The position numbers were made by a program, and so were the translations under genes. The notes beneath the pieces are model-generated. The model was not told the DNA's origin. It saw nothing but the letters and a program-made list of their open reading frames with translations, and did not search any database. From Microvelia longipes (lineage: Eukaryota > Arthropoda > Insecta > Hemiptera > Veliidae), in NCBI GenBank assembly GCA_018340805.1, contig JACMZG010001863.1, positions 60,262,300 through 60,326,299 of the forward strand: a stretch of 64,000 nucleotides of DNA, given 5' to 3'. Shown here piece by piece: positions 6,476 to 62,262 of the stretch (position 1 is the first letter of the stretch; each line of letters opens with the position of its first letter).

Positions 6476-7190
6476 GTTATTCATTCAATAAATGCTTATT
6501 ATTATAAGAAACAAAAGAATAGAGCCACTTAACAAAAGTAGAAATCTACTCCGAAAAATTAGAAAGAATCTCTTCTGCAATTCGTGTGATGACAGACCCA
6601 AAAGATAGCAACTCATTTCTTAAATTTATTTAAGTTCAAAGTAGAAGACTTGGCTCAGATTTTCTTGTATTGTTTCATCATGGACTTAATCAACATCAAT
6701 AGATCGTGGAACTCTATTTGAAAAGTGCTAATGTAACATTGCAGTTCTACTTACTATTAATAATAATTTTACCAAAAAACATGATTCATTTGGTTTCAAA
6801 GTATATGATGACCTTTAGTTGGGAAAGCCAAATTTATTTTAAATAAATTTAAATGTGAAACTTTTTTTTATTATTCTGATCATGATTAATTTATTTAAAA
6901 AAAAAATCTATTAGGAACGATTAAATTGTGTTTGTTTGAGAGAATAAGTAGAACTGCTCTTATAGTAAAGTAAGTAGAGACAGTTGCACTCATACGCGAT
7001 AATTTCTACGATTATGTATCAGCTTAATTTATCGGAGAAAATAATTTCATGTACTTGAAAGTACATGAATGATGTATGATTCTGAAGGAAGTTTTTGATT
7101 CTAACTCAAAACCATGATGACGGTTAAGAAACAACGCGTAGCCCCTCATTGTTAAAAAGGGGAGAGGCGCATATTATCCCACTAACTCTT

Positions 7191-10843: not shown

Positions 10844-11122
10844 ATAAAATTAGACTTTGGATAACCATTCTATTCTAAGATTGACTGTTGCAAGATAGAT
10901 GTAGTACCACCTTACTTAACTTGAATATTAACCTTACTTAAATATTAAAGCAATTTATAAAGTGGATCATGGTTTAGAAAAAAAAATAATTTTAGGAAAC
11001 AATGTTGTTTAACTTAATGTTATTAACTTCCTTCCTTGAGTTCCTTTTTAGGGAACTCATTAAAATAAGTTGTTGAGTTATGAAATAACTAATTATAAGT
11101 AATGAGTTGTGGAGTTTCAAGT

Positions 11123-11592
11123 AATGAAGTAAAACAGAGTCTCTCCACTAATGATATATATTTTACATAGCCAGCTTTCAATCTTAACAGATCATCATCA
11201 GTGCCTAACCAACAAAGTAAAAATATATTACATAAAATACCCTAAATAAAAATAACATCAATAAAAGCAAAACAATAAAATGAAATAAATGCATCATTAA
11301 AATAAAATAGGGAATCAAAATAAACACATTGACCAAATAAAAACAAATGAAGTAAACGAAATAAATAAAAACACAAAACATTAAATATATATAAAATAAC
11401 TATTTTATTTTAATTATGCATTTATTTCATTTTATTGTATTGCTTTTTATTCTAGTATGTTATTTTTAGTTAGAGTATTTTATGTGGTATATTTTTACTT
11501 TGTTGGTTAGGCACTGAAGATGATCTGCTAAGATTGAAAGCTGGCTATGTCAAATATATATCATTAGTGTATAGACTCTGTTTTACTTCATT
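11123..11592. mobile_element. 470-bp fold-back element with hammerhead-like arms (family E)
   Basis: The ends AATGAAGTAAAACAGAGTCT are inverted at 11123 and 11592. The arms continue through ACTAATGATATATAT, AGCCAGCTTTCAATCTTA and GTGCCTAACCAACAAAG. The centre is A-rich (AAATAAA words). The left arm on the minus strand contains a full hammerhead-like core (11168-11214). No protein coding. The GAGTCTCTCC block links it to the elements at 27762-28007 and 41311-41437. Confidence 0.75.
11168..11214 (-). ncRNA. Candidate minimal hammerhead ribozyme, family E
   Basis: Minus strand: GGCA-CTGATGA-U-GATCT-loop-AGATT-GAAA-GCTGGCT-A. Helix II (GATCT/AGATT) pairs with one wobble. AGCUGGCU is self-complementary apart from a U.G wobble and could form helix III. 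The cleavage position would be UA. Helix I could pair GCA with UGU. One extra U lies between CTGATGA and helix II relative to the textbook core. The right-arm copy (about 11513-11550, plus) has CTGAAGA, allowed because core position 7 is variable. Confidence 0.45.
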
Positions 11593-22600: not shown

Positions 22601-22749
22601 GATTTTATCTCATTTAAATATTTGACACAATATAATTATGCGAGAGACACCTAGGAAATGTAACAAGCAAAATGCAATGCTACATCTGGGAACTGTTCCA
22701 TCATTCGACATTCGTCATTATTGATGGCTCGACATAATGTCATGTCCCA

Positions 22750-22790
22750 CTCTGTTTCGTTACGTCTAACTCATCAGGGCGCCGACAGAG
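22750..22790 (-). ncRNA. Hammerhead ribozyme in the inverted partial copy
   Basis: On the minus strand it reads CTCTGTC, GGCGCC, CTGATGA, GTTA-GACG-TAAC, GAAA, CAGAG. All invariant core positions are present; see 23023-23063 for the folding. Confidence 0.85.
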
Positions 22791-23022
22791 CCTGAACAGC
22801 CTGACAGTTCCCAGATGTAGCATTGCATTTTGCTTGTTACATTTCCTAGGTGTCTCTCGCACAATTATATTGTCAACTATTCATGTTTTGCAAAACTCGG
22901 TAGTATCAATGATACATGTTTTGCTTGCCATGCATGATGGCGTAAGAGAGCACCGCTTGTCTCTGGTAAGTACTTCACATTATATTCTTCGGAATTAATT
23001 TGAAGGTCAGAGTGAGTTCAGG

Positions 23023-23063
23023 CTCTGTCGGTGCCCTGATGAGTTAGACGTAACGAAACAGAG
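23023..23063 (+). ncRNA. Hammerhead ribozyme, unit 1
   Basis: A self-cleaving RNA motif of 41 nt. Helix III pairs CTCTGT with ACAGAG (6 bp). The cleavage triplet is GUC, cut after C 23029. Helix I is only GGTGCC (23030-23035). The core CTGATGA (23036-23042) is followed by helix II GTTA/TAAC with a GACG loop, and GAA plus the paired A of helix III. G10.1-C11.1, G12-A13-A14 and A15.1-U16.1 are all as required. Helix I is too short to close as a hairpin but is self-complementary with two G.U pairs, so cleavage would need pairing between two copies. No experimental evidence is available here. Confidence 0.88.
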
Positions 23064-23337
23064 TGGGACATGACATTATGTCGAGCCATCAATGATGACG
23101 AATGTCGAATGATGGAACAGTTCCCAGATGTAGCATTGCATTTAGCTTGTTACATTTCCTAGGTGTCTCTCGCACAATTATATTGTGTCAACTATTCATG
23201 TTTTGCAAAACTCGGTAGTATCAAATGATACATGTTTTGCTTGCCATGCATGATGGCGGTAAGAGAGCACCGCTCGTCTCTGGTAAGTACTTCACATTAT
23301 ATTCTTCGGAATTAATTGAAGTCAGAGTGAGTTCAGG

Positions 23338-23378
23338 CTCTGTCGGTGCCCTGATGAGTTAGACGTAACGAAACAGAG
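23338..23378 (+). ncRNA. Hammerhead ribozyme, unit 2
   Basis: Identical 41-nt core to unit 1, helix I GGTGCC. Its predicted cleavage site lies 315 nt downstream of that in unit 1. Confidence 0.88.
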
Positions 23379-23651
23379 TGGGACATGACATTATGTCGAG
23401 CCATCAATGATGACGAATGTCGAATGATGAACAGTTCCCAGATGTAGCATTGCATTTAGCTTGTTACATTTCCTAGGTGTCTCCGCACAATTATATTGTG
23501 TCAACTATTCATGTTTTGCAAAACTCGGTAGTATCAAATGATACATGTTTTGCTTGCCATGCATGATGGCGGTAAGAGAGCACCGCTCGTCTCTGGTAAG
23601 TACTTCACATTATATTCTTCGGAATTAATTGAAGGTCAGAGTGAGTTCAGG

Positions 23652-23692
23652 CTCTGTCGGCGCCCTGATGAGTTAGACGTAACGAAACAGAG
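23652..23692 (+). ncRNA. Hammerhead ribozyme, unit 3
   Basis: Same core, but helix I is GGCGCC, a perfect self-complementary hexamer, replacing the wobble version. Cleavage spacing from unit 2 is 314 nt. Confidence 0.88.
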
Positions 23693-23963
23693 TGGGACAT
23701 GACATTATGTCGAGCCATCAATGATGACGAATGTCGAATGATGGAACAGTTCCAGATGTACCATTGCATTTAGCTTGTTACATTTCCTAGGTGTCTCTCG
23801 CACAATTATATTGTGTCAACTATTCATTTTGCAAAACTCGGTAGTATCAAATGATACATGTTTTGCTTGCCATGCATGATGGCGTAAGAGAGCACCGCTC
23901 GTCTCTGGTAAGTACTTCACATTATATTCTTCGGAATTAATTGAAGGTCAGAGTGAGTTCAGG

Positions 23964-24003
23964 CTCTGTCGGCGCCTGATGAGTTAGACGTAACGAAACA
24001 GAG
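23964..24003 (+). ncRNA. Hammerhead ribozyme, unit 4 (one C fewer)
   Basis: Core as in the other units, but the CCC before TGATGA has lost one C, leaving GGCGC before CTGATGA. In view of many homopolymer differences in this assembly the loss may be a consensus error. Confidence 0.8.
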
Positions 24004-24185
24004 TGGGACATGACATTATGTCGAGCCATCAATGATGACGAATGTCGAATGATGGAACAGTTCCCAGATGTAGCATTGCATTTTGCTTGTTACATTTCCT
24101 AGGTGTCTCTCGCACAATTATATTGTGTCAACTATTCATGTTTTGCAAAACTCGGTAGTATTAAATGATATATCATTTAAATATT

Positions 24186-27761: not shown

Positions 27762-28007
27762 TAAATAATTAAATGAAAAGTCTCTCCGCAAAATAAAAAA
27801 CTTTATTGGCAAAGCGCTTTCAACCTAGCTAGAGGTCATCTATATATCTAAGAAGACGAATCTAATATCTAAAGCTAAATCATAGACTCACTCGTCTTCC
27901 TTTTATTTCTTCAACGGTTATGCACTGATGATGGCCTCTAGCTAGGTTGAAAGCGCTTTGCCAATAAAGTTTTTATTTTGTGGAGAGACTTTTCATTTAA
28001 TTATTTA
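27762..28007. mobile_element. 246-bp fold-back element with hammerhead-like arm (family H)
   Basis: TAAATAATTAAATGAAAAGT with CTCTCC is inverted at both ends. The arms include AAAGCGCTTTCAACCTAGC. The right arm contains a full hammerhead-like core (27922-27963); the left arm has lost the CTGATGA box. The following GAACTCCATTCACGCTCATTCTCAA-type sequence also follows the element at 41311-41437. Confidence 0.75.
27922..27963 (+). ncRNA. Candidate minimal hammerhead ribozyme, family H
   Basis: GCA-CTGATGA-U-GGCCT-CTAGCT-AGGTT-GAAA-GCGCT-T-TGC. Helix II has three Watson-Crick and two G.U pairs. AGCGCU is self-complementary (helix III). Helix I pairs GCA with TGC. Cleavage would be after UU. The extra U before helix II is shared with other families in the window. 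Confidence 0.5.
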
Positions 28008-28854
28008 TGATGAACTCCATTCACGCTCATTCTCAAGATGTGATGACTATATAGTGTCTTATAATCTGTGAGACAAATATGACATTTTTTCTGAAAAATA
28101 AAAAGTTGTGAAGCTACTGTTCAGGTTCTAAGGATATGCCCTATAAACATTGCACACATTGAAAAAAAGACTTCACAGAGATTTAAAATTTAATTGTTTT
28201 TCCAGATCTGGTTTTGAGTGTGGCTATTCTACCCCTGAGTACTAGGAAAGTCTCACCCCCTCTCCCAGAAGGGTGGCTTTTACGCTTTTAAGTACCGTAA
28301 AAAAATTAAGGTATATTTATATATTCGACATAATAAAATATTAAGTTTGTACTAGCGTATACTAGCGTATTTGTTTTTAAAAATATTTTTAATGTATAAC
28401 GAGCAAATTTATAACAATCATGAAAAATAACTTGAAACTTTTACTAATATTCATAATGTCTTGAATATTACATATATTGAATAATATATATTCATAGTGT
28501 ATGTTTTTTTTTGTATGTTATGTAAATTATTTTTAGTATTAACCCTTTTATGTACTATATAGACCCAGGTACAATCACTATTTTTTTATCTCTTTTTCTC
28601 TGTAATTTTGTACATTCAAAAATATTATTTGTACTTCTTGTTAAAAAAAATAATAAACATTTATTTATTTATTCATAAACTTCGTTTTAAACGCAAGTAC
28701 AAACGAATTACTTTACTAGCGTATAAAGCTATGTCGAAAAATTCAACTATTTTTAAAATAAAATTTTAAATTTTAAAACCAATTGATAATTTCAAGGATC
28801 AAAACTGCCATATTTCAATTAGAAAATTTGCGAGAATGACTTTAAAAAATCGGG
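28008..28854. other. No gene; possible retroelement tail
   Basis: A TTAAAAAAAATAATAAACAT stretch followed by TTTATTTATTT near 28640-28672 looks like a poly(A)-bearing retroelement end. Otherwise AT-rich without recognised features. Confidence 0.35.
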
Positions 28855-32865: not shown

Positions 32866-32958
32866 TTTAGTACCTATATATACCTAGTATAGTACCTATA
32901 TACCTACAGAGTAATAAAATAAGTCACTCCACTGGTGTCAACAATTTATTTAAAATAA

Positions 32959-33002
32959 AGCGTAACCGGCTTTCAACCAACTAAAGGTCATCATCAGTGC
33001 CT
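32959..33002 (-). ncRNA. Candidate minimal hammerhead-like motif
   Basis: Minus strand: GGCA-CTGATGA-U-GACC..GGTT-GAAA-GCCGGTT-A. Core boxes are complete. AGCCGGUU is self-complementary with G.U pairs. Helix I is not supported by the flanking bases, so activity is doubtful. Confidence 0.4.
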
Positions 33003-33237
33003 AACAAAAAAATAAATAAAAGAAATTACAAAATGGTAAAAAACAAAAATCTAAAACTAAGTTAAAATATAAAAGCCCCCTCTTCAATGCGAAGTTAGTC
33101 TAATAACAGTCAACAGTAAGAAAAAGACTCAAAACCTAGCTTCCTAACACCTCACCGATATGTTTTATCTTTTTATTCTTTTGTCAAACAAATGTCACAA
33201 AGGTTGTCTCTTGCAATGCTTTTTAGGGTGCTGTAAA

Positions 33238-33372
33238 AAATTGTCCGGAGTCGATACCATCACAGAAAGTAATAAAAGCCAGGGTTCCCAGGTTCGAATC
33301 TTTGTACTGGCAATAATTTTTTATCGTGGCACACATGTTCGCACGCCGGGCGAATTTTCTTGGAAATCTTTG
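33238..33372 (+). mobile_element. tRNA-derived SINE fragment (family 3)
   Basis: Box B-like CCAGGTTCGAATCTTTGTAC and the end CGCCGGGCGAATTTTCTTGG. It lies about 100 bp left of the assembly gap. Twenty bases spanning 33356-33375 (TTTCTTGGAAATCTTTGGTT) also occur in every 558-bp unit of the coding array, perhaps by chance. Confidence 0.55.
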
Positions 33373-33473
33373 GTTCCGTGGCATCTACCTCTTATGTCAC
33401 CCTCGTTAGCATAATGTCTAAGACAGACAGGACAAAAATACTCCCATGGAACACAGTTATACTTGGCAGAATA

Positions 33474-33483
33474 NNNNNNNNNN
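33474..33483. other. Assembly gap (10 N)
   Basis: Ten N between SINE-containing sequence and the coding repeat array, a conventional size for a join of unknown length. A lone N at 38843 marks the other edge. The array may thus be collapsed, expanded or misplaced. Confidence 0.95.
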
Positions 33484-36400
33484 CTTTACTTACCAGTTTC
33501 ACAGCGCATGGTTTCAGAGTAGTTGTTGTTGGTTTACGTGTTGTTGTTTTAGTTGATGGCTTAGGTGTTGTTTTGATTGGTGGTATTTTGACTTTCTCAA
33601 CACAACCTTTTATCAGCAATTTCACTTTAATCACTTTAGTTACTTCAAACTTGACAATCACTTTCTTTACATAATGATGTGGTTTTTTCAAAACGTTCTC
33701 AAATCATCAATAATTGTTTTCAATGATACTTTAATTGTTTTCTTTACAGGTCGTTTAACATTTGGTTTTATGAATTTTCGTTTATGAATTACAATTGTAA
33801 CAGACTTGAAGTATTTGCTCAATTTGTCACCTGGATTTACCGATATTACTTTCAATCCGACTGATGTGATTCTATTTGGTTTATTTGTCTAGTGCCTTTT
33901 ACGATATTGACAACAATTGTGTGTTTTTTGCCAGGTTTAAATTCGACACCTTGTTTTGGATTTTTCCAATCAGGTCTCAATTTTTTAATATCTTTCTTGG
34001 AAATCTTTGGTTGAACTGTAATCTTTGTCAAATCTCCATCTTTACTTACCAGTTTCACAGCGCATGGTTCAGAGTAGTTGTTGTTGGTTTACGTGTTGTT
34101 GTTTTAGTTGATGGCTTAGGTGTTGTTTTGATTGGTGGTATTTTGACTTTCTCAACACAACCTTTTATCAGCAATTTCACTTTAATCACTTTAGTTACTT
34201 CAAACTTGACAATCACTTTCTTTACATAATGATGTGGTTTTTTCAAAACGTTCTTCAAATCATCAATAATTGTTTTCAATGATACTTTAATTGTTTTCTT
34301 TACAGGTCGTTTAACATTTGGTTTTATGAATTTTCGTTTATGAATTACAATTGTAACAGACTTGAAGTATTTGCTCAATTTGTCACCTGGATTTACCGAT
34401 ATTACTTTCAATCCGACTGATGTGATTCTATTTGGTTTATTTTGTCTAGTGCCTTTTACGATATTGACAACAATTGTGTGTTTTTTGCCAGGTTTAAATT
34501 CGACACCTTTTGGATTTTTCCAATCAGGTCTCAATTTTTTAATATCTTTCTTGGAAATCTTTGGTTGAACTGTAATCTTTGTCAAATCTCCATCTTTACT
34601 TACCAGTTTCACAGCGCATGGTTTCAGAGTAGTTGTTGTTGGTTTACGTGTTGTTGTTTTAGTTGATGGCTTAGGTGTTGTTTTGATTGGTGGTATTTTG
34701 ACTTTCTCAACACAACCTTTTATCAGCAATTTCACTTTAATCACTTTAGTTACTTCAAACTTGACAATCACTTTCTTTACATAATGATGTGGTTTTTTCA
34801 AAACGTTCTTCAAATCATCAATAATTGTTTTCAATGATACTTTAATTGTTTTCTTTACAGGTCGTTTAACATTTGGTTTTATGAATTTTCGTTTATGAAT
34901 TACAATTGTAACAGACTTGAAGTATTTGCTCAATTTGTCACCTGGATTTACCGATATTACTTTCAATCCGACTGATGTGATTCTATTGGTTTATTTTGTC
35001 TAGTGCCTTTTACGATATTGACAACAATTGTGTGTTTTTTGCCAGGTTTAAATTCGACACCTTGTTTTGGATTTTTCCAATCAGGTCTCAATTTTTTAAT
35101 ATCTTTCTTGGAAATCTTTGGTTGAACTGTAATCTTTGTCAAATCTCCATCTTTACTTACCAGTTTCACAGCGCATGGTTTCAGAGTAGTTGTTGTTGGT
35201 TTACGTGTTGTTGTTTTAGTTGATGGCTTAGGTGTTGTTTTGATTGGTGGTATTTTGACTTTCTCAACACAACCTTTTATCAGCAATTTCACTTTAATCA
35301 CTTTAGTTACTTCAAACTTGACAATCACTTTCTTTACATAATGATGTGGTTTTTTCAAAACGTTCTTCAAATCATCAATAATTGTTTTCAATGATACTTT
35401 AATTGTTTTCTTTACAGGTCGTTTAACATTTGGTTTTATGAATTTTCGTTTATGAATTACAATTGTAACAGACTTGAAGTATTTGCTCAATTTGTCACCT
35501 GGATTTACCGATATTACTTTCAATCCGACTGATGTGATTCTATTTGGTTTATTTTGTCTAGTGCCTTTTACGATATTGACAACAATTGTGTGTTTTTTGC
35601 CAGGTTTAAATTCGACACCTTGTTTTGGATTTTTCCAATCAGGTCTCAATTTTTTAATATCTTTCTTGGAAATCTTGGTTGAACTGTAATCTTTGTCAAA
35701 TCTCCATCTTTACTTACCAGTTTCACAGCGCATGGTTTCAGAGTAGTTGTTGTTGGTTTACGTGTTGTTGTTTTAGTTGATGGCTTAGGTGTTGTTTTGA
35801 TTGGTGGTATTTTGACTTTCTCAACACAACCTTTTATCAGCAATTTCACTTTAATCACTTTAGTTACTTCAAACTTGACAATCACTTTCTTTACATAATG
35901 ATGTGGTTTTTTCAAAACGTTTCTCAAATCATCAATAATTGTTTCAATGATACTTTAATTGTTTTCTTTACAGGTCGTTTAACATTTGGTTTTATGAATT
36001 TTCGTTTATGAATTACAATTGTAACAGACTTGAAGTATTTGCTCAATTTGTCACCTGGATTTACCGATATTACTTTCAATCCGACTGATGTGATTCTATT
36101 TGGTTTATTTTGTCTAGTGCCTTTTACGATATTGACAACAATTGTGTGTTTTTGCCAGGTTTAAATTCGACACCTTGTTTTGGATTTTTCCAATCAGGTC
36201 TCAATTTTTTAATATCTTTCTTGGAAATCTTTGGTTGAACTGTAATCTTTGTCAAATCTCCATCTTTACTTACCAGTTTCACAGCGCATGGTTTCAGAGT
36301 AGTTGTTTGTTGGTTTACGTGTTGTTGTTTTAGTTGATGGCTTAGGTGTTGTTTTGATTGGTGGTATTTTGACTTTCTCAACACAACCTTTTATCAGCAA

Positions 36401-38842
36401 TTTCACTTTAATCACTTTAGTTACTTCAAACTTGACAATCACTTTCTTTACATAATGATGTGGTTTTTTCAAAACGTTCTTCAAATCATCAATAATTGTT
36501 TTCAATGATACTTTAATTGTTTTCTTTACAGGTCGTTTAACATTTGGTTTTATGAATTTTCGTTTATGAATTACAATTGTAACAGACTTGAAGTATTTGC
36601 TCAATTTGTCACCTGGATTTACCGATATTACTTTCAATCCGACTGATGTGATTCTATTTGGTTTATTTTGTCTAGTGCCTTTTACGATATTGACAACAAT
36701 TGTGTGTTTTTTGCCAGGTTTAAATTCGACACCTTGTTTTGGATTTTTCCAATCAGGTCTCAATTTTTTAATATCTTTCTTGGAAATCTTTGGTTGAACT
36801 GTAATCTTTGTCAAATCTCCATCTTTACTTACCAGTTTCACAGCGCATGGTTTCAGAGTAGTTGTTGTTGGTTTACGTGTTGTTGTTTTAGTTGATGGCT
36901 TAGGTGTTGTTTTGATTGGTGGTATTTTGACTTTCTCAACACAACCTTTTATCAGCAATTTCACTTTAATCACTTTAGTTACTTCAAACTTGACAATCAC
37001 TTTCTTTACATAATGATGTTTTTTTCAAAACGTTCTTCAAATCATCAATAATTGTTTTCAATGATACTTTAATTGTTTTCTTTACAGGTCGTTTAACATT
37101 TGGTTTTATGAATTTTCGTTTATGAATTACAATTGTAACAGACTTGAAGTATTTGCTCAATTTGTCACCTGGATTTACCGATATTACTTTCAATCCGACT
37201 GATGTGATTCTATTTGGTTTATTTTGTCTAGTGCCTTTTACGATATTGACAACAATTGTGTTTTTTTGCCAGGTTTAAATTCGACACCTTGTTTTGGATT
37301 TTTCCAATCAGGTCTCAATTTTTTAATATCTTTCTTGGAAATCTTTGGTTGAACTGTAATCTTTGTCAAATCTCCATCTTTACTTACCAGTTTCACAGCG
37401 CATGGTTTCAGAGTAGTTGTTGTTGGTTTACGTGTTGTTGTTTTAGTTGATGGCTTAGGTGTTGTTTTGATTGGTGGTATTTTGACTTTCTCAACACAAC
37501 CTTTTATCAGCAATTTCACTTTAATCACTTTAGTTACTTCAAACTTGACAATCACTTTCTTTACATAATGATGTGGTTTTTTCAAAACGTTCTTCAAATC
37601 ATCAATAATTGTTTTCAATGATACTTTAATTGTTTTTTTTACAGGTCGTTTAACATTTGGTTTTATGAATTTTCGTTTATGAATTACAATTGTAACAGAC
37701 TTGAAGTATTTGCTCAATTTGTCACCTGGATTTACCGATATTACTTTCAATCCGACTGATGTGATTCTATTTGGTTTATTTTGTCTAGTGCCTTTTACGA
37801 TATTGACAACAATTGTGTGTTTTTTGCCAGGTTTAAATTCGACACCTTGTTTTGGATTTTTCCAATCAGGTCTCAATTTTTTAATATCTTTCTTGGAAAT
37901 CTTTGGTTGAACTGTAATCTTTGTCAAATCTCCATCTTTACTTACCAGTTTCACAGCGCATGGTTTCAGAGTAGTTGTTGTTGGTTTACGTGTTGTTGTT
38001 TTAGTTGATGGCTTAGGTGTTGTTTTGATTGGTGGTATTTTGACTTTCTCAACACAACCTTTTATCAGCAATTTCACTTTAATCACTTTAGTTACTTCAA
38101 ACTTGACAATCACTTTCTTACATAATGATGTGGTTTTTTCAAAACGTTCTTCAAATCATCAATAATTGTTTTCAATGATACTTTAATTGTTTTCTTTACA
38201 GGTCGTTTAACATTTGGTTTTATGAATTTTCGTTTATGAATTACAATTGTAACAGACTTGAAGTATTTGCTCAATTTGTCACCTGGATTTACCGATATTA
38301 CTTTCAATCCGACTGATGTGATTCTATTTGGTTTATTTTGTCTAGTGCCTTTTACGATATTGACAACAATTGTGTGTGTTTTTTGCCAGGTTTAAATTCG
38401 ACACCTTGTTTTGGATTTTTCCAATCAGGTCTCAATTTTTTAATATCTTTCTTGGAAATCTTTGGTTGAACTGTAATCTTTGTCAAATCTCCATCTTTAC
38501 TTACCAGTTTCACAGCGCATGGTTTCAGAGTAGTTGTTGTTGGTTTACGTGTTGTTGTTTTAGTTGATGGCTTAGGTGTTGTTTTGATTGGTGGTATTTT
38601 GACTTTCTCAACACAACCTTTTATCAGCAATTTCACTTTAATCACTTTAGTTACTTCAAACTTGACAATCACTTTCTTTACATAATGATGTGGTTTTTTC
38701 AAAACGTTCTTCAAATCATCAATAATTGTTTTCAATGATACTTTAATTGTTTTCTTTACAGGTCGTTTAACATTTGGTTTTATGAATTTTCGTTTATGAA
38801 TTACAATTGTAACAGACTTGAAGTATTTGCTCAATTTGTCAC
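33484..38842 (-). CDS. Giant tandem-repeat protein, 9.6 units of 186 residues (partial, both ends missing)
   Basis: The minus strand carries 9.6 head-to-tail 558-bp units, each open for 186 codons. One unit begins KPCAVKLVSKDGDLTKI, continues through KLRPDWKNPKQGVEFKPGKK, GLKVISVNPGDKLSKYFKSV and KKPHHYVKKVIVKFEVTK to LLIKGCVEKVKIPP, then the linker TTPKPSTKTTTRKPTTTT. It has 44 Lys (24%), two Cys (residues 3 and 157 of the unit as started here) and alternating hydrophobic runs suggesting a beta-rich domain, with a mucin-like Thr/Pro linker between domains. No signal peptide or end is present. Frame breaks (for example near 34071, 34986, 35675, 36306, 37020, 38118) are 1-3-base length changes, mostly in T runs, while base substitutions are almost absent, so sequencing error is likelier than decay. 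Function unknown; a secreted structural, cuticular, adhesive or silk-like role is only a guess. Confidence 0.75.
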
Positions 38843-38887
38843 NATAAAATAAATTATTATATCATTCATTTTATATTTTTAATAAGT

Positions 38888-41015: not shown

Positions 41016-41310
41016 CGAGCGCCGCACCCTGCATCCACCAGTATATTTCTTGTTTCAAGCCTACTCAAACCTTCTTGATTTTGTTTTATATTTAAAACTA
41101 CCTTTTGCAACACTTTTATCTCAGCTCAACGGTAATATTTCTATTTATTCTTTTTTAATTTATTTATTTATTTACATATTAGTATTTATTTTTATTTATT
41201 TATATTTTAATTATCGCTCCATTTCTGTAATTTATCTGTTTCTTTGGTATATTTTTGTAATTTTTTTATGTATAGTTTGTTTTGACATTTTTTGTCTTAT
41301 ATATTTAATA

Positions 41311-41351
41311 GGCACTGATGATGACCTCTTGTTAGGTCGAAAGCGCTCTGC
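41311..41351 (+). ncRNA. Best-preserved minimal hammerhead ribozyme, family H
   Basis: GGCA-CTGATGA-U-GACCT-CTTGTT-AGGTC-GAAA-GCGCT-C-TGCT. Helix II GACCT/AGGTC is fully paired. Helix III is the self-complementary AGCGCU. Cleavage would follow C 41348. Helix I pairs GGCA with TGCT (last pair G.U). Only the extra U after CTGATGA departs from the canonical core. Confidence 0.6.
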
Positions 41352-41437
41352 TTTACTTTTAATAAAATCTAAAACTGTGGAGAGACTTTTTATACTTTCG
41401 TTCTATTACGATGGACTCCATTTATGCTCATTCTCAA
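41311..41437 (+). mobile_element. Element end of family H carrying a hammerhead
   Basis: From GGCACTGATGATGACC through GTGGAGAGACTTTTTAT to GACTCCATTTATGCTCATTC it aligns with the right arm and flank of 27762-28007. Upstream sequence (41050-41310) is T-rich with (TTTA)n, and the CTCAACGGT block precedes the motif as at 27912 and 54908. Left end not found. Confidence 0.6.
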
Positions 41438-42174: not shown

Positions 42175-42200
42175 CGTGTGTTTTATAGTTATTATAATTA

Positions 42201-42334
42201 GATCATTTGATGCTACCGAGTTTAGCAAAACAAAAATAGTTGACACAATATAATTGTGCGAGAGACACCTAAGAAATGTAGCATTGAATTTTGCTTGTTA
42301 CATTTCCGAGGTGTCTTTCGCAGAATTATATTGT
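42201..42334 (-). mobile_element. Solo, internally deleted element G with 13-bp duplication
   Basis: GTTATTATAATTA is duplicated exactly (42188-42200 and 42335-42347). Between lie an ACAATATAATT..GCG end, an inverted copy of the same end and the CTCGGTAGCATCAAATGAT terminus, matching the ends of 22623-24172 on the opposite strand. The ribozyme-bearing part is missing. This copy fixes the element boundaries. Confidence 0.8.
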
Positions 42335-42372
42335 GTTATTATAATTATTTAATACATTCATAACAACGGAGT

Positions 42373-42599
42373 CTGCCTCCGTTGCCGTGATCGTAAAGGC
42401 GTTCGATATCGGCACCGGAGGTCCGGGGTTCGCAGCCCGGGATATGCTCTAAGATTTTATGAATAGTATTTGTATTGAAATGATTTCGCCAACTTGAATT
42501 AATTCTTAGAGTGTAGTAGATGCAACCCACCTGAGGTGGTTCCCGCAGGGTGAATACCCTGATGGGCCGAAAGGCCCTAAAACGGGCATTTTATTTTTT
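42373..42599 (+). mobile_element. tRNA-derived SINE (family 2) with 13-bp target duplication
   Basis: The head CTCCGTTGCCGTGATCGTAA and box B-like CCGGGGTTCGCAGCCCGG lead to a body TGAGGTGGTTCCCGCAGGG and a T-rich end. ATAACAACGGAGT is perfectly duplicated (42360-42372 and 42600-42612). Near the 3' end GGGCC-GAAA-GGCCC makes a 5-bp hairpin with a GNRA-type loop. Partner LINE unknown. Confidence 0.88.
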
Positions 42600-42612
42600 A
42601 TAACAACGGAGT

Positions 42613-50600: not shown

Positions 50601-51790
50601 TTTTTTTTAATATATAATAATTAGATTTATTTCCATCTTAATAACTATTTACAATTTTAACATAAAAAAATATAATACAATAATCTTCAATTTCTTTTTT
50701 AATTATAATGAAAAAACAAAAGATGAGCCTCCTCAAGGCAAATGCCAGAGGGAGGAGGCTGCCTGTAAACCTTTGCATAGGTTTTATTTGCAACACATTT
50801 ATTATTGTTTTCTAAACCTTAATAACAATAGATAGATTATACAGACAAAAAAAATGTATATTATATATAAAAAATATAGAACTCTGTACCTAATATAATT
50901 GCTAATAGTTAGAGATAAGGTATTTAAGATTTGATTAAATGTAATTATTTAGTCGGCTTTTAGCGTGGGGTCGTGGTAGATCGTATCCGTAAAGTGTAAA
51001 AGTTTTCATTTCAAAAAGAATATAATTTTATATTAATTATTAGATTCTTTGTGTCTTATCATTCTTATTTCTAATATAGAATAGTTTTTTAAGTTTATTT
51101 TTAAATTTTTCTTGAGAGTCAGCTATTTTTATATCTTGAGGTAGTGAATTGAATAGAGTTGGTGCTAGATATCTGTAAAATCTTTGCATTTTAGTGGTGT
51201 GACAAAGTGGTATATGCTGTGATTTATATGCTTGATATCTAGTATTGTACGTATGGACTGGAGTTGGATTATCTTAATTATTATAATATTTTGTAAGTAT
51301 AACTTTTTCGTATAATAATTGAATTGGTAAAACATTAAAATCTTTGTATAATTCTGCAGTAGATGATTTTCTTGGTCTACGTAAAATAATTTTAATTATT
51401 CTTCTTTGCAATATATTTAATGATTTAAAATTTGTTTGCGAGGCTGATCCATACACTATGATACCATAGTGCATTAATGATTCTGATAATGCAAAATATA
51501 TCTGACGCAAATTTTGTTGAGGCAATATTTTTCTTAATTGCAAGAAATAATAAACAGTTTTTCTAAGTCTTGTATTTAATGTATGTATGTGATTTTTCCA
51601 ATTTAGATTTTCATTAATTATAACCCCCAGGTATTTTATGTTTTGCACTTTATCCAGTTTGGTACAGTCACAGTTTTGTCGCTTCTGGCATTCTAATTTA
51701 TTGTCTAAATATTGTCAAAAGATATTTTTGATGGTGTTTAGAATAAGTTTATATTGTAATGGTAGTTTGCAAGAGTTTCAAAAAGCGTTG
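50601..51790 (-). mobile_element. Truncated non-LTR retrotransposon
   Basis: Includes the reverse transcriptase 3' portion (51775-51040), a 3' untranslated region with a perfect 8-bp hairpin (GCCTCCTC at 50752-50759 complement, GAGGAGGC at 50727-50734 complement) and an end GGAAATAAATCT..A8 at about 50601-50608. The 5' part is missing, which is usual for LINE copies. Confidence 0.75.
51040..51775 (-). pseudogene. Non-LTR reverse transcriptase, C-terminal part
   Basis: The minus-strand translation contains NIKYLGVIINENLNWKNHI, matching the conserved KYLG(V/I) block at the end of the reverse transcriptase of Jockey/CR1-type elements. It continues with LRQIYFALSESLMHYGIIV, a NILQRRIIKIILRRPR block and then PVHTYNTRYQAY and YRYLAPTLFNSLPQDIK..KFKNKLKKLF, the usual C-terminal layout. 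An upstream CDCTKLDKVQ also fits. One in-frame stop (TAA 51276-51274) splits otherwise continuous coding, and an in-frame TGA lies near 51719. The catalytic FADD region and endonuclease are absent. The copy is dead but not very old. Family assignment rests on motif recall. Confidence 0.8.
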
Positions 51791-54964: not shown

Positions 54965-56316
54965 TAATTCAAATCTATTTATTTCAGCATTTATTTTATA
55001 ACCTATGTTATAATGATGGACATTATTATACATCTGTAAAATAACATTTATATGTTATAATTATAGACATTATAAAACATCTGTTAAATAAATTTATATG
55101 TTATAATTATAGCATTATTATACATCTGTAAAATAATATTTGTACATTATTATACATCATAAAATACATTATTATACATCTGTTAAATAAAATTTATATG
55201 TTATAATTATAGACATTATTATACATCTGTAAAATAATATTTATGTTATAATGATAGACATTATAACATCTGTAAAATAAATTTATATTTATGATAGACA
55301 TTATTATAATAGTAAAATAATATTTATATGTTATAAATTATAGACATTATTATACATGTAAAATAATATATAAATGATAGACATATACATCTGTAAAAAT
55401 ATTTATATGTTATAATGATAGACCATTATATACATCTGTAAAATAATATTTATATGTATTAGATAGACATTATTATACATCTGTAAAATAATATTTATAT
55501 GTTATATATAGACATTATTAACATCTGTAAAAATATATATTTATAATGATAGATAAATATATTTATATGTTACATTATTATAATCTGTAAAATAATATTT
55601 ATATGTTATAATTATAGATATTAATATACCTGTAAAATAATATTTATATGTAATAATGATAGACATTATTATACATCTGTAAAATAATATTATATTTATA
55701 ATGATAGACATTATTATACATCTTAAAATAATATTATATGTATAATTATAGACATTATTATACATCTGTAAAATAATATTTATATGTTATAATGATAGAC
55801 ATTATTATACCTGTAAAATAATATTTATATGTTATAATATAGACATTATTATACATCTGTAAAATAATATTGTATATGTTATATTATAGACATTATTATA
55901 CATCTGTAAAATAATATTTTATGTTTATAATGATAGACATATTATACATCTGTAAATAATATTTATATGTTATTAGACATTATATACATCTGTAAAATAA
56001 TATTTATATGTCATAAGATAGACATTATATAATCTGAAATAATATTTGTATGTTTAATTATAGACTTATTATACATCTGTAAAATAATATTTATATGTTA
56101 TAATGATAGACATTATTATACATCTGTAAAATAATATTTATATGTTATAAGATAGACATTATTATAAAATAATTTTGTTCATGTAAAATAATATTTATAT
56201 GTTATAATTATAGACATTATTATACATCTGTAAATAATATTTATATGTTATAATGATAGACATTATTATACATCTGTAAATATATTTATATAATGAAGAC
56301 ATTATTATAAAAAAAA
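54965..56316 (+). repeat. 47-bp minisatellite, first block
   Basis: Around 28 imperfect units of TATGTTATAATGATAGACAT, TATTATACATCTGTAAAA and TAATATTTA. Small deletions are frequent. Confidence 0.9.
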
Positions 56317-56648
56317 TATACAAAAAAATAAACGAAAATCTTAAATAACATAATATATGAAGAATAACATATATATGATATAACAAATGATAATTGAGGA
56401 ATTAGCTGCAGTCGATACTTGCTGTTGGATATGGATATCACTGGACCGATTTCGACTTAACGCCATTATCAGCAGGCAGGGCAATACTCGAGATCTCAAC
56501 TAATAAAGTTATCACAATATATTGTGCGAGAGACACCTAGGAAATGCAAGCATGAACAAGCAAATGCAATGCTACATCTGGGAACTCATTATTGATGGCT
56601 CGACATTACATTAATGACGAATGTCAAATGAAGGATCAGTTCCCAGAT
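56317..56648 (+). repeat. Non-satellite insert, copy 1 of a ~333-bp duplication
   Basis: Nearly identical to 57499-57833 (a few one-base differences). Contains a degenerate hammerhead-like motif (56439-56475, minus) and a fragment of element G (GCGAGAGACACCTAGGAAAT). At its right edge it returns to the 47-bp satellite. Confidence 0.88.
56439..56475 (-). ncRNA. Degenerate hammerhead-like motif in the duplicated segment
   Basis: Minus strand: CTG-CTGATAATG..GTTAAGTC-GAAATCGGTC-CAG. Helix I CTG/CAG and the GGUC cleavage site are kept, but G8 of the core is A and helix III (AUCGGU) has a mismatch. Repeated at 57623-57659. Confidence 0.35.
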
Positions 56649-57498
56649 AATTATAGACATTATTATACCTGTAAAATAATATTTATGTTTATTATAGCAT
56701 TATTATACATCTGTAAAATAATTTTATTTATATACATTGTAAAAAATATTTATATGTTATAGATAGACATTATTATACATCTGTAAAATAATATTTATAT
56801 GTTATACGATAGACATTATTATACATCTGTAAAATAATATTTATATGTTATAATTATAGACATTATTATACATCTGTAAAATAATATTTATATGTTATAA
56901 TGATAGACATTATTATACATCTGTAAAATAATATTTTATGTTATAATGATAGACATTTATTATACATCTGTAAAATAATATTTAATATGTTATAATTATA
57001 GACATTATTATACATCTGTAAAATAATTATATGTTATAATATAGACATTATATACATTGTATAGATACATTATTAATACATCTGTAAAAATAATATATTT
57101 ATATGTTATAATGATAGACATTATTATACATCTGTAAAATAATATTTATATGTTATAATGATAGACATTATTATACATCTGTAAAATAATATTTATACAT
57201 CTGTAAAAATATTTTATATAATGATAGAATTATTATACATCTGTAAAATAATTTTATAGTTATAATTATAGACATTATTATACATCTGTAAAATAATATT
57301 ATATGTTATAATGATACATTATTATACATCTGTAAATAATATTTGTATGTTATACATGATAGACATATTAACATCTGTAAAATAATATTATATGTATAAT
57401 GATAACATAATACATCTGTAAATAATATTTATATGTTATAATGATAGACATTATTATAATCTGTAAAATATATTTATAGGTTTAATTATAGATATTAA
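56649..57498 (+). repeat. 47-bp minisatellite, second block
   Basis: About 18 further units of the same 47-bp repeat. Confidence 0.9.
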
Positions 57499-57910
57499 TA
57501 TACAAAAAAAATTAACGAAAATCTTAAATAACATAATATATGAAGAATAACATATATATGATATAACAAATGATAATTGAGGAATTAGCTGCAGTCGATA
57601 CTTGCTGTTGGATATGGATATCACTGGACCGATTTCGACTTAACGCCATTATCAGCAGGCAGGGCAATACTCGAGATCTCAACTAATAAAGTTATCACAA
57701 TATAATTGTGCGAGAGACACCTAGGAAATGCAAGCATGAACAAGCAAATGCAATGCTACATCTGGGAACTCATTATTGATGGCTCGACATTACATTAATG
57801 ACGAACGTCAAATGAAGGATCAGTTCCCAGATATAGCATTGCATTTTGCTTGTTACATTTCCTAGGTGTAAAACATCGACTATTCATGATTTGCAAAACA
57901 CGGTAGTATT
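57499..57910 (+). repeat. Copy 2 of the ~333-bp duplication plus element G fragment
   Basis: 57499-57833 repeats 56317-56648; after the end of the duplication the element G sequence continues (TAGCATTGCATTTTGCTTG, then GCAAAACACGGTAGTAT at about 57890-57906). Copy 2 is therefore the original junction and copy 1 the derived one. Confidence 0.8.
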
Positions 57911-58282
57911 AAATAATATAATAAAGTTTTATCAGTAAATAACTTCTAGTCTCAATAGGCAGGACGAGCCCTCTGAAGACCCTAGGCGAGGGTTCATATT
58001 AGGAATGTGTACCGATTCAAGGCCGTGTCCTTGAGAGAGGTGTGTGTAAAAAAATTACCAAAATACAGTGTTATTAATATCAAATTCCTTAGGATTGAAT
58101 GCTGTTTTCAAAATAGTTAATTTGACGATATTCTCAAATTTAATTTTTTAAAGTTACAAAATTATTATGGTAATTAGATACCATAATAATAATTTTCGAG
58201 TTTAGAAATATGTTTCCCCATATTTTTTAGGGATTATTCGGAGAAAAGTAAGTACTCCACGATTAATTTTCACATTACAAAT
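57911..58282. other. No recognised feature
   Basis: AT-rich sequence between element G fragment and (TA)n array. Confidence 0.45.
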
Positions 58283-61680: not shown

Positions 61681-62088
61681 TAAATATATTAAAATTATCT
61701 TTTTAAATAAGTATATAAATGGTAGATATAATATTGTAATGTTTATTACTTAAAACAAATTTGTTCCTAAGTCATAAAATATTGTATGACATGATTGAAT
61801 ACATTACTGAATGAAATAAGCATCGCGCCATGCCTGGCCGGGTGTTTTTTTTTAATAGAATTTGTAATTTATCAAAGTGAAATTACTTAAATGGAAACGA
61901 TAATATATTTTATGCATTTAGATTTAAACTAATCATGGAAATATAAAACTGGGTGATTTAAATGTGGTATTTTGTATAAGGAACTGCCCCATTTCTTTAA
62001 AACAATAGCCTGAGCAAATGCTCCGATACAGGGGGTTTATTGTTTGCGACTCTCGCTGGCTGCCTCAGTATGTACTCTACAATTATCA
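61681..62088. other. No recognised feature
   Basis: AT-rich; nothing recognised. Confidence 0.45.
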
Positions 62089-62262
62089 TTTGATACTACC
62101 GAGTTTTGCAAAACATGAGTTGGACGTAACGAAACAGAGTGGAACATGACATGATGTCGAGCCATCAATGATGACGAATGTCGAATGATGAAACAGTTCC
62201 CAGATTAGCATGCATTTTTCTTGTTACATTCCTAGGTGTCTCTCGCACAATTTAATTTGTGT
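62089..62262 (+). mobile_element. Element G fragment with partial hammerhead
   Basis: Starts with the inverted terminus ATCATTTGATACTACCGAG and GTTTTGCAAAACATG, then GAGTTGGACGTAACGAAACAGAG (only the 3' part of the ribozyme, 62116-62139) and the unit sequence down to the CACAATTTAATTTGTGT end. The CTGA box and cleavage site are deleted. Confidence 0.7.

Follow-up and report, generated by a model that had tools for sequence, protein, structure and literature searches.

A high-copy retrozyme-like element of unusual hammerhead type in Microvelia longipes, with a probable Penelope-type mode of insertion

An insertion of tandem and inverted units with type III hammerhead cores

Within the 64,000-nucleotide stretch of Microvelia longipes contig JACMZG010001863.1 that was analysed here (the window), positions 22623 to 24172 hold an inverted partial unit followed by 4.4 direct units, with five hammerhead ribozyme cores in all. 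The original prediction of a tandem array of 314-bp units at this place was borne out: Tandem Repeats Finder reported a period of 313, 4.4 copies, and 97% matches from 22804 to 24170. The 13-bp sequence TCATTTAAATATT stands as a direct repeat just outside, at 22610 to 22622 and again at 24173 to 24185, and this target-site duplication (TSD) marks the whole of 22623-24172 as one insertion with exact limits. The inverted arm (22623..22797, minus strand), found by blastn of 22617-22797 against a doubled unit and then trimmed by the TSD, consists of one partial unit with its outer end at about unit position 161 (end A). The direct arm (22804..24172, plus strand) comprises a partial unit, three full units, and another partial unit, and its outer end lies at about unit position 203 (end B). 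The full units, all on the plus strand, are u1 (23030..23344, 315 nt, the reference for all unit positions), u2 (23345..23658, 314 nt), and u3 (23659..23970, 312 nt); the G+C content is 0.42.

The motif CTCTGTC-N5/6-CTGATGA-GTTA-GACG-TAAC-GAAA-CAGAG occurs at all five places, and every core has the conserved CUGANGA, GAAA, and UH elements together with the G10.1-C11.1 and A15.1-U16.1 pairs, just as had been claimed for the four direct units and the inverted copy. All are of type III. The inverted arm bears a complete core on the minus strand (22749..22791; helix I segment GGCGCC), which matches the Rfam model RF00008 at 37.0 bits (E 6.9e-6) and has its predicted cut at 22784/22783. On the plus strand, the cores at 23022..23064 and 23337..23379, both with GGTGCC, score 35.6 bits (E 1.7e-5), with predicted cuts after 23029 and 23344; the core at 23651..23693, with GGCGCC, scores 37.0 bits (E 6.9e-6; cut after 23658); and the core at 23963..24004, whose helix I segment GGCGC is one base short, scores 31.9 bits (E 1.9e-4; cut after 23970). 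These are the four direct-strand cut positions that had been foreseen, and their spacing gives the units of 315, 314, and 312 nt. RNA of the array is predicted to cleave itself into pieces of unit length.

None of the five cores reaches the RF00008 gathering score of 48.5 bits (range, 31.9 to 37.0), a shortfall explained by helix I being a 6-nt self-complementary segment without a loop; the alignments place the deficit in helix I and its loop. Scores under threshold in all units had been named beforehand as grounds for rejecting the hammerhead, and formally such scores were obtained. Yet all five cores match the model at E-values of 6.9e-6 to 1.9e-4 in a search space of 1.8 kb, and a type III descriptor (helix III of at least 4 bp) had no hits in 60 dinucleotide shuffles of the window on both strands; both results show that the motif is no product of chance. 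A type I reading of the core was rejected: CAGAGTGGG after GAAA puts G where H is required, and Rfam aligns the core as type III. Searching the whole genome with the type I model RF00163 gave no matches, though the control was also silent in every genome.

Helix III consists of 6 bp plus a G-U, and helix II of 4 bp with a 4-nt loop. The stretch available for helix I, loop included, is only 5 to 6 nt long; an ordinary hairpin is impossible there, and the cores do not possess a helix I of several pairs with a loop contacting loop II. The hammerhead had been called complete, which is accurate for the conserved core and does not hold in the sense of a self-standing monomeric ribozyme, helix I being loopless and palindromic. 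Our test for purifying selection on the hammerhead was not significant, its columns showing no significant excess of conservation over the remainder of the unit (p = 0.135 and 0.16). None is expected in a family that is young and 97% identical, so conservation is uninformative in this case.

The family is a high-copy one: the genome, of 664.6 Mb in 1470 contigs, yielded at least 226 matches, a count based on 40 scored among 3971 first-look candidates. The same genome has 121 matches to Chitin_bind_4, a cuticle domain that marks arthropods. The 36 loci that were fetched had been picked from the best matches and are thus biased toward close copies; together with four window pieces they make 40 sequences, in which we found 212 full-core motifs. 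Four further partial copies lie in the window and, like the TSD, the loopless helix I, and the head-to-head architecture, go beyond the original prediction. They are a short two-armed copy (42201..42334, minus strand; ends B and A; TSD GTTATTATAATTA at 42188-42200 and 42335-42347), a two-armed copy of about 90% identity (62083..62261, minus strand; ends B and A; TSD TACTCTACAA), an older two-armed copy of about 78 to 80% identity (57694..57918, plus strand; ends A and B; TSD TAATAAAGTT), and a truncated copy (56507..56648, plus strand) with end A present and the other side broken at about unit position 100, beside a 45-bp tandem array. The repeats flanking window copies W2, W3, and W4 have to be read against the result of the TSD search there, in which random places in the repetitive surroundings gave equally long and sometimes longer matches. 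No relatives were found in prokaryote genome contigs, and the one exact 19-nt pattern match in viral contigs (L045), which has neither helix II nor GAAA, was taken as chance. Judged from its sequence, we consider 22623-24172 to be a real insertion of a high-copy, non-coding, retrozyme-like element with an unusual type of hammerhead.

Other features of the window were recorded in passing. The 45- to 47-bp tandem array has about 54 copies (55004-57504), and sequence from one side of it is duplicated inside the array (flanks 56440-56648 and 57600-57830) along with a truncated retrozyme copy; there seems to have been a segmental duplication spanning the array. A tandem coding repeat of about 556 bp (33276-38861, minus strand) contains ORF pieces of up to 311 aa that are Lys/Thr-rich with TTTPKPSTKTTTRKPTTTT linkers and belong to no confident Pfam family, and an assembly gap of 10 N (33474-33483) falls inside it. 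At 51274-51714 on the minus strand, a 146-aa frame resembles by eye the C-terminal part of a non-LTR reverse transcriptase, with one relative at 32% identity and no Pfam match.

Two fixed ends and the layout of Penelope-like elements

Blastn with unit u1 in the 36 fetched loci and the window identified 21 closed two-armed copies, all ordered as minus-strand units, a junction at a variable place, and plus-strand units. Of 58 outward 3' array ends, 48 fall at two unit positions about 40 nt apart, 25 at 150-172 (A) and 23 at 196-214 (B), these end windows having been set after the data were seen; the other 10 lie elsewhere. Fourteen of the 21 two-armed copies have one A end and one B end, none has two ends alike, and seven have one end elsewhere. 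A perfect direct repeat of 9 to 14 bp borders 11 of the 21, and a shorter or one-mismatch repeat borders three more (L009, L011, and L022, that of L011 read by eye). After trimming by the TSD, A ends lie near 157-162 and B ends near 200-205, with exceptions that include L029 and L009, whose A ends are a few bases shorter. The combination of exact ends, TSDs, and head-to-head arms is seen repeatedly at unrelated sites, even where a copy measures only about 135 to 230 bp. Both positions coincide with the 3' foot of a predicted hairpin, ACAAT-TAT-ATTGT for A and GTATC-AAAT-GATAC for B, the first preserved in 255 of 296 segments and the second in 249 of 270.

Some copies have features of their own. 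Two loci carry very long head-to-head arrays of about 21 and more than 20 units (L022, 743-7540, and L032, 375-7601), which form long near-perfect palindromes in the chromosome. In L011, the stretch at 1337-1506, between two pieces of the inverted arm, includes in inverted orientation the host DNA that lies immediately to the right of the element, and it looks as if flanking DNA had been copied into the insertion.

Penelope-like elements have been called only a strong candidate for the mobilisation of animal retrozymes (PMC7229834). In the account given for the anole Penelope, reverse transcription by the purified protein has two neighbouring internal start points, both strands of the target are cut and extended, and the sequence from one start point to the other is the 30- to 40-bp "tail" of genomic copies (PMC11167929). 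Rotifer Penelope copies are described as head-to-head, with a 31-bp tail at one inverted end and TSDs of 8 to 10 bp (PMC3846280). The element studied here resembles these in its head-to-head inverted copy, in having one end, and only one, that is longer by 30 to 40 nt, and in similar TSD length (PMC11167929, PMC3846280). Its copies match the Penelope signature in every respect that sequence can show, and the structural evidence for Penelope-type insertion is strong.

The genome itself contains an element of the RT-GIY-YIG kind, and at least 63 GIY-YIG matches above threshold were obtained among 150 scored. In one locus (L066), RVT_1, at a score below Pfam's own cut-off, and GIY-YIG occupy two neighbouring ORFs; an inverted 979-bp piece is present at 98%, and the right end is 31 nt longer than the left. 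The 11-mer TGTAAACTTAT lies on both sides of this copy, and since it occurs once more upstream, the target itself being repeated, the duplication is weaker evidence. The closest named relative of one Penelope reverse transcriptase in the genome came from a ladybird, at 35% identity. When the retrozyme unit was compared with the 3' ends of 20 Penelope-like loci (23 less the 3 that hold a retrozyme copy), the longest common match was 13 nt (E 0.59), and for want of similarity in this comparison we rejected the idea that the unit derives from a terminal repeat of Penelope. A retrozyme copy lies within 1.5 kb of 3 of 20 Penelope loci (L049, L053, and L065), a closeness that may be only a matter of repeat-rich regions.

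Fragments resembling the genome's Penelope-like 3' parts are also scattered through the window, at 32907-33182, 41280-41434, 27897-28033, 11120-11235, 6805-6889, and 42370-42601, the last of them adjoining a retrozyme copy; the best cases reach 94% to L064 and 95% to L061. In some of them there is CTGATGATGACC...GGTTGAAA, which resembles a hammerhead core but has an additional base ahead of helix II. Another locus, L047, differs from the Penelope loci: its positions 389-1692 hold an intronless ORF of 352 aa, metallophosphoesterase-like by eye, beside an 80-aa GIY-YIG ORF, and the stretch could be a host gene or an endogenised piece of a large DNA virus.

A palindromic helix I and variants shared within insertions

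Across the 40 sequences (36 fetched loci and 4 window pieces), 197 of 242 motifs have GGCGCC as the helix I segment and 5 have GGTGCC; segments of 3 to 8 nt also occur as variants. Over the whole motif, 158 of 241 are identical. GGCGCC is self-complementary, and two such segments can therefore pair with each other, whether they lie in adjacent units or in separate molecules; taken with the type III topology, this leads to the prediction that cleavage would take place in a dimer joined through helix I. Dimerisation would keep the 6-bp stem of helix I, the partner replacing the loop.

Folding with ViennaRNA put the strand-swapped dimer through GGCGCC, in which each core is built from both strands and helix I forms a continuous 6-bp duplex, at -30.3 kcal/mol, versus -14.8 for two monomeric hammerhead folds. 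This dimer lies 2.5 kcal/mol above the overall dimer minimum free energy (MFE) of -32.8, and for the monomeric hammerhead fold the distance from the MFE of the motif itself is 4.2 kcal/mol. A 6-nt segment allows at most one base pair closed by a tetraloop, and even that pair costs energy (-5.2 versus -7.4 kcal/mol without it). We also folded 52 two-unit transcripts, taking no more than two from each strand of a locus. Helix I between units had a mean probability of 0.53 and exceeded 0.5 in 24 of them, and the swapped helices III averaged 0.23 and 0.30 versus 0.02 and 0.14 for the local ones. Helix I and both swapped helices III did not all exceed 0.5 in any of the 52 folds, and for the window's own GGTGCC-GGTGCC pair the inter-unit helix I was near 0. 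In a 121-nt piece, local helices III and II had probabilities of 0.43 and 0.49. The circular fold of the unit was only moderately stable relative to shuffles (z of -2.9, -1.7, and -2.0). In silico the dimer is favoured over the monomer, a result that is suggestive and not proof. GGTACC, likewise self-complementary, occurs in a single diverged copy next to a Penelope element; we considered it as a compensatory change in helix I and set it aside, because this copy has a disrupted helix III and the substitutions fall in a CpG.

Within an insertion the units are more alike than chance would make them, with a difference of 0.0108 versus a mean of 0.0191 under permutation (minimum of 2000 permutations, 0.0166). 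Near-private variants, defined as substitutions present in at least 75% of an insertion's own units and at most 5% of units elsewhere, were found in 15 of 32 insertions with at least four segments; each of 20 permutations of the labels gave none. The site is covered by both arms in 10 cases, and in 8 of these the variant is present in the two arms alike. The window array is mixed, with some variants confined to inner units and 202C present in four of five; L024 likewise exemplifies heterogeneous arrays. The repeated private variants are moderate evidence for rolling-circle copying with both arms derived from the same circle, and gene conversion or unequal exchange could be another source of clonal units.

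Relation to known elements and competing explanations

Small hammerheads that are associated with Penelope and cleave as dimers were reportedly described by Luense in 2017, and a 2014 paper by Cervera and de la Pena is said to be directly relevant earlier work. The original prediction saw a match with animal retrozymes and Penelope-associated hammerheads; this stands for size, tandem layout, G+C content, the long TSD, and the Penelope-type layout, and is not supported for the type of hammerhead. The account of animal non-LTR retrozymes in PMC7229834 gives them tandem units of 150 to 450 bp with one hammerhead each, a G+C content below 50%, long TSDs, and RNA predicted to be self-paired, and describes no LTR, PBS, or PPT; the present element is like them in all this, with non-coding units within that range and a TSD of more than 4 bp. 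Unlike the hammerheads of those retrozymes, which are described, as are those of Penelope, as type I with a weak helix III (PMC7229834, PMC7761336), ours is of type III with a palindromic helix I, and head-to-head arms with two fixed ends find no mention in the passages of PMC7229834 on these retrozymes. Because of the type III strand order, we file the element as retrozyme-like, a variant. Penelope-like elements also place a hammerhead upstream of the reverse transcription start sites (PMC11167929), but they are described with an ORF and a minimal type I hammerhead, whereas here there is no ORF, a unit of only 314 bp, and a type III hammerhead.

The type III order, the 4-bp helix II, and its 4-nt loop are shared with plant LTR retrozymes and viroid-like satellites (PMC4918200). 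Unlike the element described here, with its 13-bp TSD and tandem and head-to-head units, plant LTR retrozymes have units of about 700 bp in LTRs and TSDs of 4 bp (PMC4918200). A typical type III hammerhead is described with a 6-bp helix I and a loop of 6 to 8 nt (PMC7936874), and this loop is absent here. Type III hammerheads are known in animals from HDV-like RNAs of toad and termite and from dipteran genomes (PMC7936874), as well as from mammalian Clec2 (PMC6155905); they have an extended helix I, and in the relevant passages of these two sources none is described as a tandem retrozyme. In the satellite hammerheads of newts and axolotl, a palindrome is said to extend helix III in the dimer (PMC7229834, PMC3088659). 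The new element is like these satellites (PMC7229834) and the viroid ASBVd (PMC6155905) in having a palindromic closed helix that is too short by itself and is thought to be extended in the dimer, with the difference that the common helix there is helix III of a type I ribozyme and here would be helix I of a type III ribozyme. Searches of open-licence papers, judged by titles, abstracts, and selected passages, turned up no report joining retrozymes with two-ended target-primed insertion and none of a helix I dimer of a natural hammerhead; priority is not certain for either.

The reading that we prefer, with a probability of roughly 0.7, is that of a high-copy, non-coding, retrozyme-like element with a type III hammerhead predicted to cleave as a dimer, likely forming circles and likely inserted by a Penelope-type reverse transcriptase from two fixed starts. 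Unit RNA would be transcribed from an array, its hammerheads would pair as dimers through helix I and cut it into unit-length pieces, and these would likely be closed into circles. A Penelope-type enzyme would begin at two fixed places on the RNA, one for each cut target strand, and rolling-circle reverse transcription round the RNA would produce the multimeric arms. A fuller version has two Penelope-type reverse transcriptases starting at neighbouring hairpins of the same circle, the cDNAs joined head to head, and the circles cut by helix I-paired hammerheads; we offer it tentatively, at a little under even chances.

The dimer is where another view of the same element could be taken, with the hammerhead acting as an ordinary monomer or needing bound Penelope protein and the palindrome being an incidental relic of a lost helix I loop. 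The anole Penelope hammerhead is described as cleaving only with its protein added (PMC11167929), the local helices III and II can form, and helix I variants of other lengths exist; moreover, GGCGCC is common through recent descent, so its uniformity is no proof of selection. Against this stand the single tetraloop-closed pair that the segment could form, the energy which that pair costs, and the greater distance of the monomer fold from its MFE, and we regard this view as unlikely, if well worth keeping in mind. The growth of the arrays is another point of dispute, as they might expand like ordinary satellite DNA, by unequal exchange and gene conversion, with reverse transcription responsible for the founding copies at most. 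The length of L032, at more than 20 units, and the heterogeneous L024 would suit such growth, and concerted evolution also gives homogeneity within insertions; but exact ends, TSDs, and head-to-head arms are seen at unrelated sites, even in the shortest copies, and the combination of an A end with a B end (14 of 21 copies) is not what satellite growth would predict. We think such growth improbable.

Much the same low probability attaches to mobilisation by a LINE-type target-primed enzyme through twin priming. LINE twin priming also inverts 5' parts, the window has the non-LTR-like frame at 51274-51714, and no sequence link between retrozyme and Penelope elements was found. We know of no LINE twin priming from two fixed internal starts without poly(A) or a 3' repeat. 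Two such starts are the behaviour described for Penelope (PMC11167929), and the retrozyme shares its layout with L066, a Penelope-like copy from this genome. A fold-back or inverted-repeat DNA transposon with hammerhead-like motifs by chance would account for the inverted arms and for target duplications that differ little in length; but the ends are not mirror images, lying about 40 nt apart in all 14 copies with both ends classed, the duplication varies from 9 to 14 bp, and the inner junction differs in position between copies, so that we give this explanation hardly any weight.

If the Penelope-type retrozyme reading is followed, the start-site signature of Penelope is borne by the retrozyme copies themselves, in a non-coding RNA of 314 nt. 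Two hairpins would then be all that the enzyme needs, and the question becomes amenable to tests in vitro. Standard annotation probably overlooks elements of this sort, as their hammerheads fall short of the curated Rfam threshold. Their repeated private variants represent genomic support for the copying of one RNA circle, which has so far been proposed, not shown, and a type III hammerhead pairing through helix I would add a second solution beside the dimer trick of helix III.
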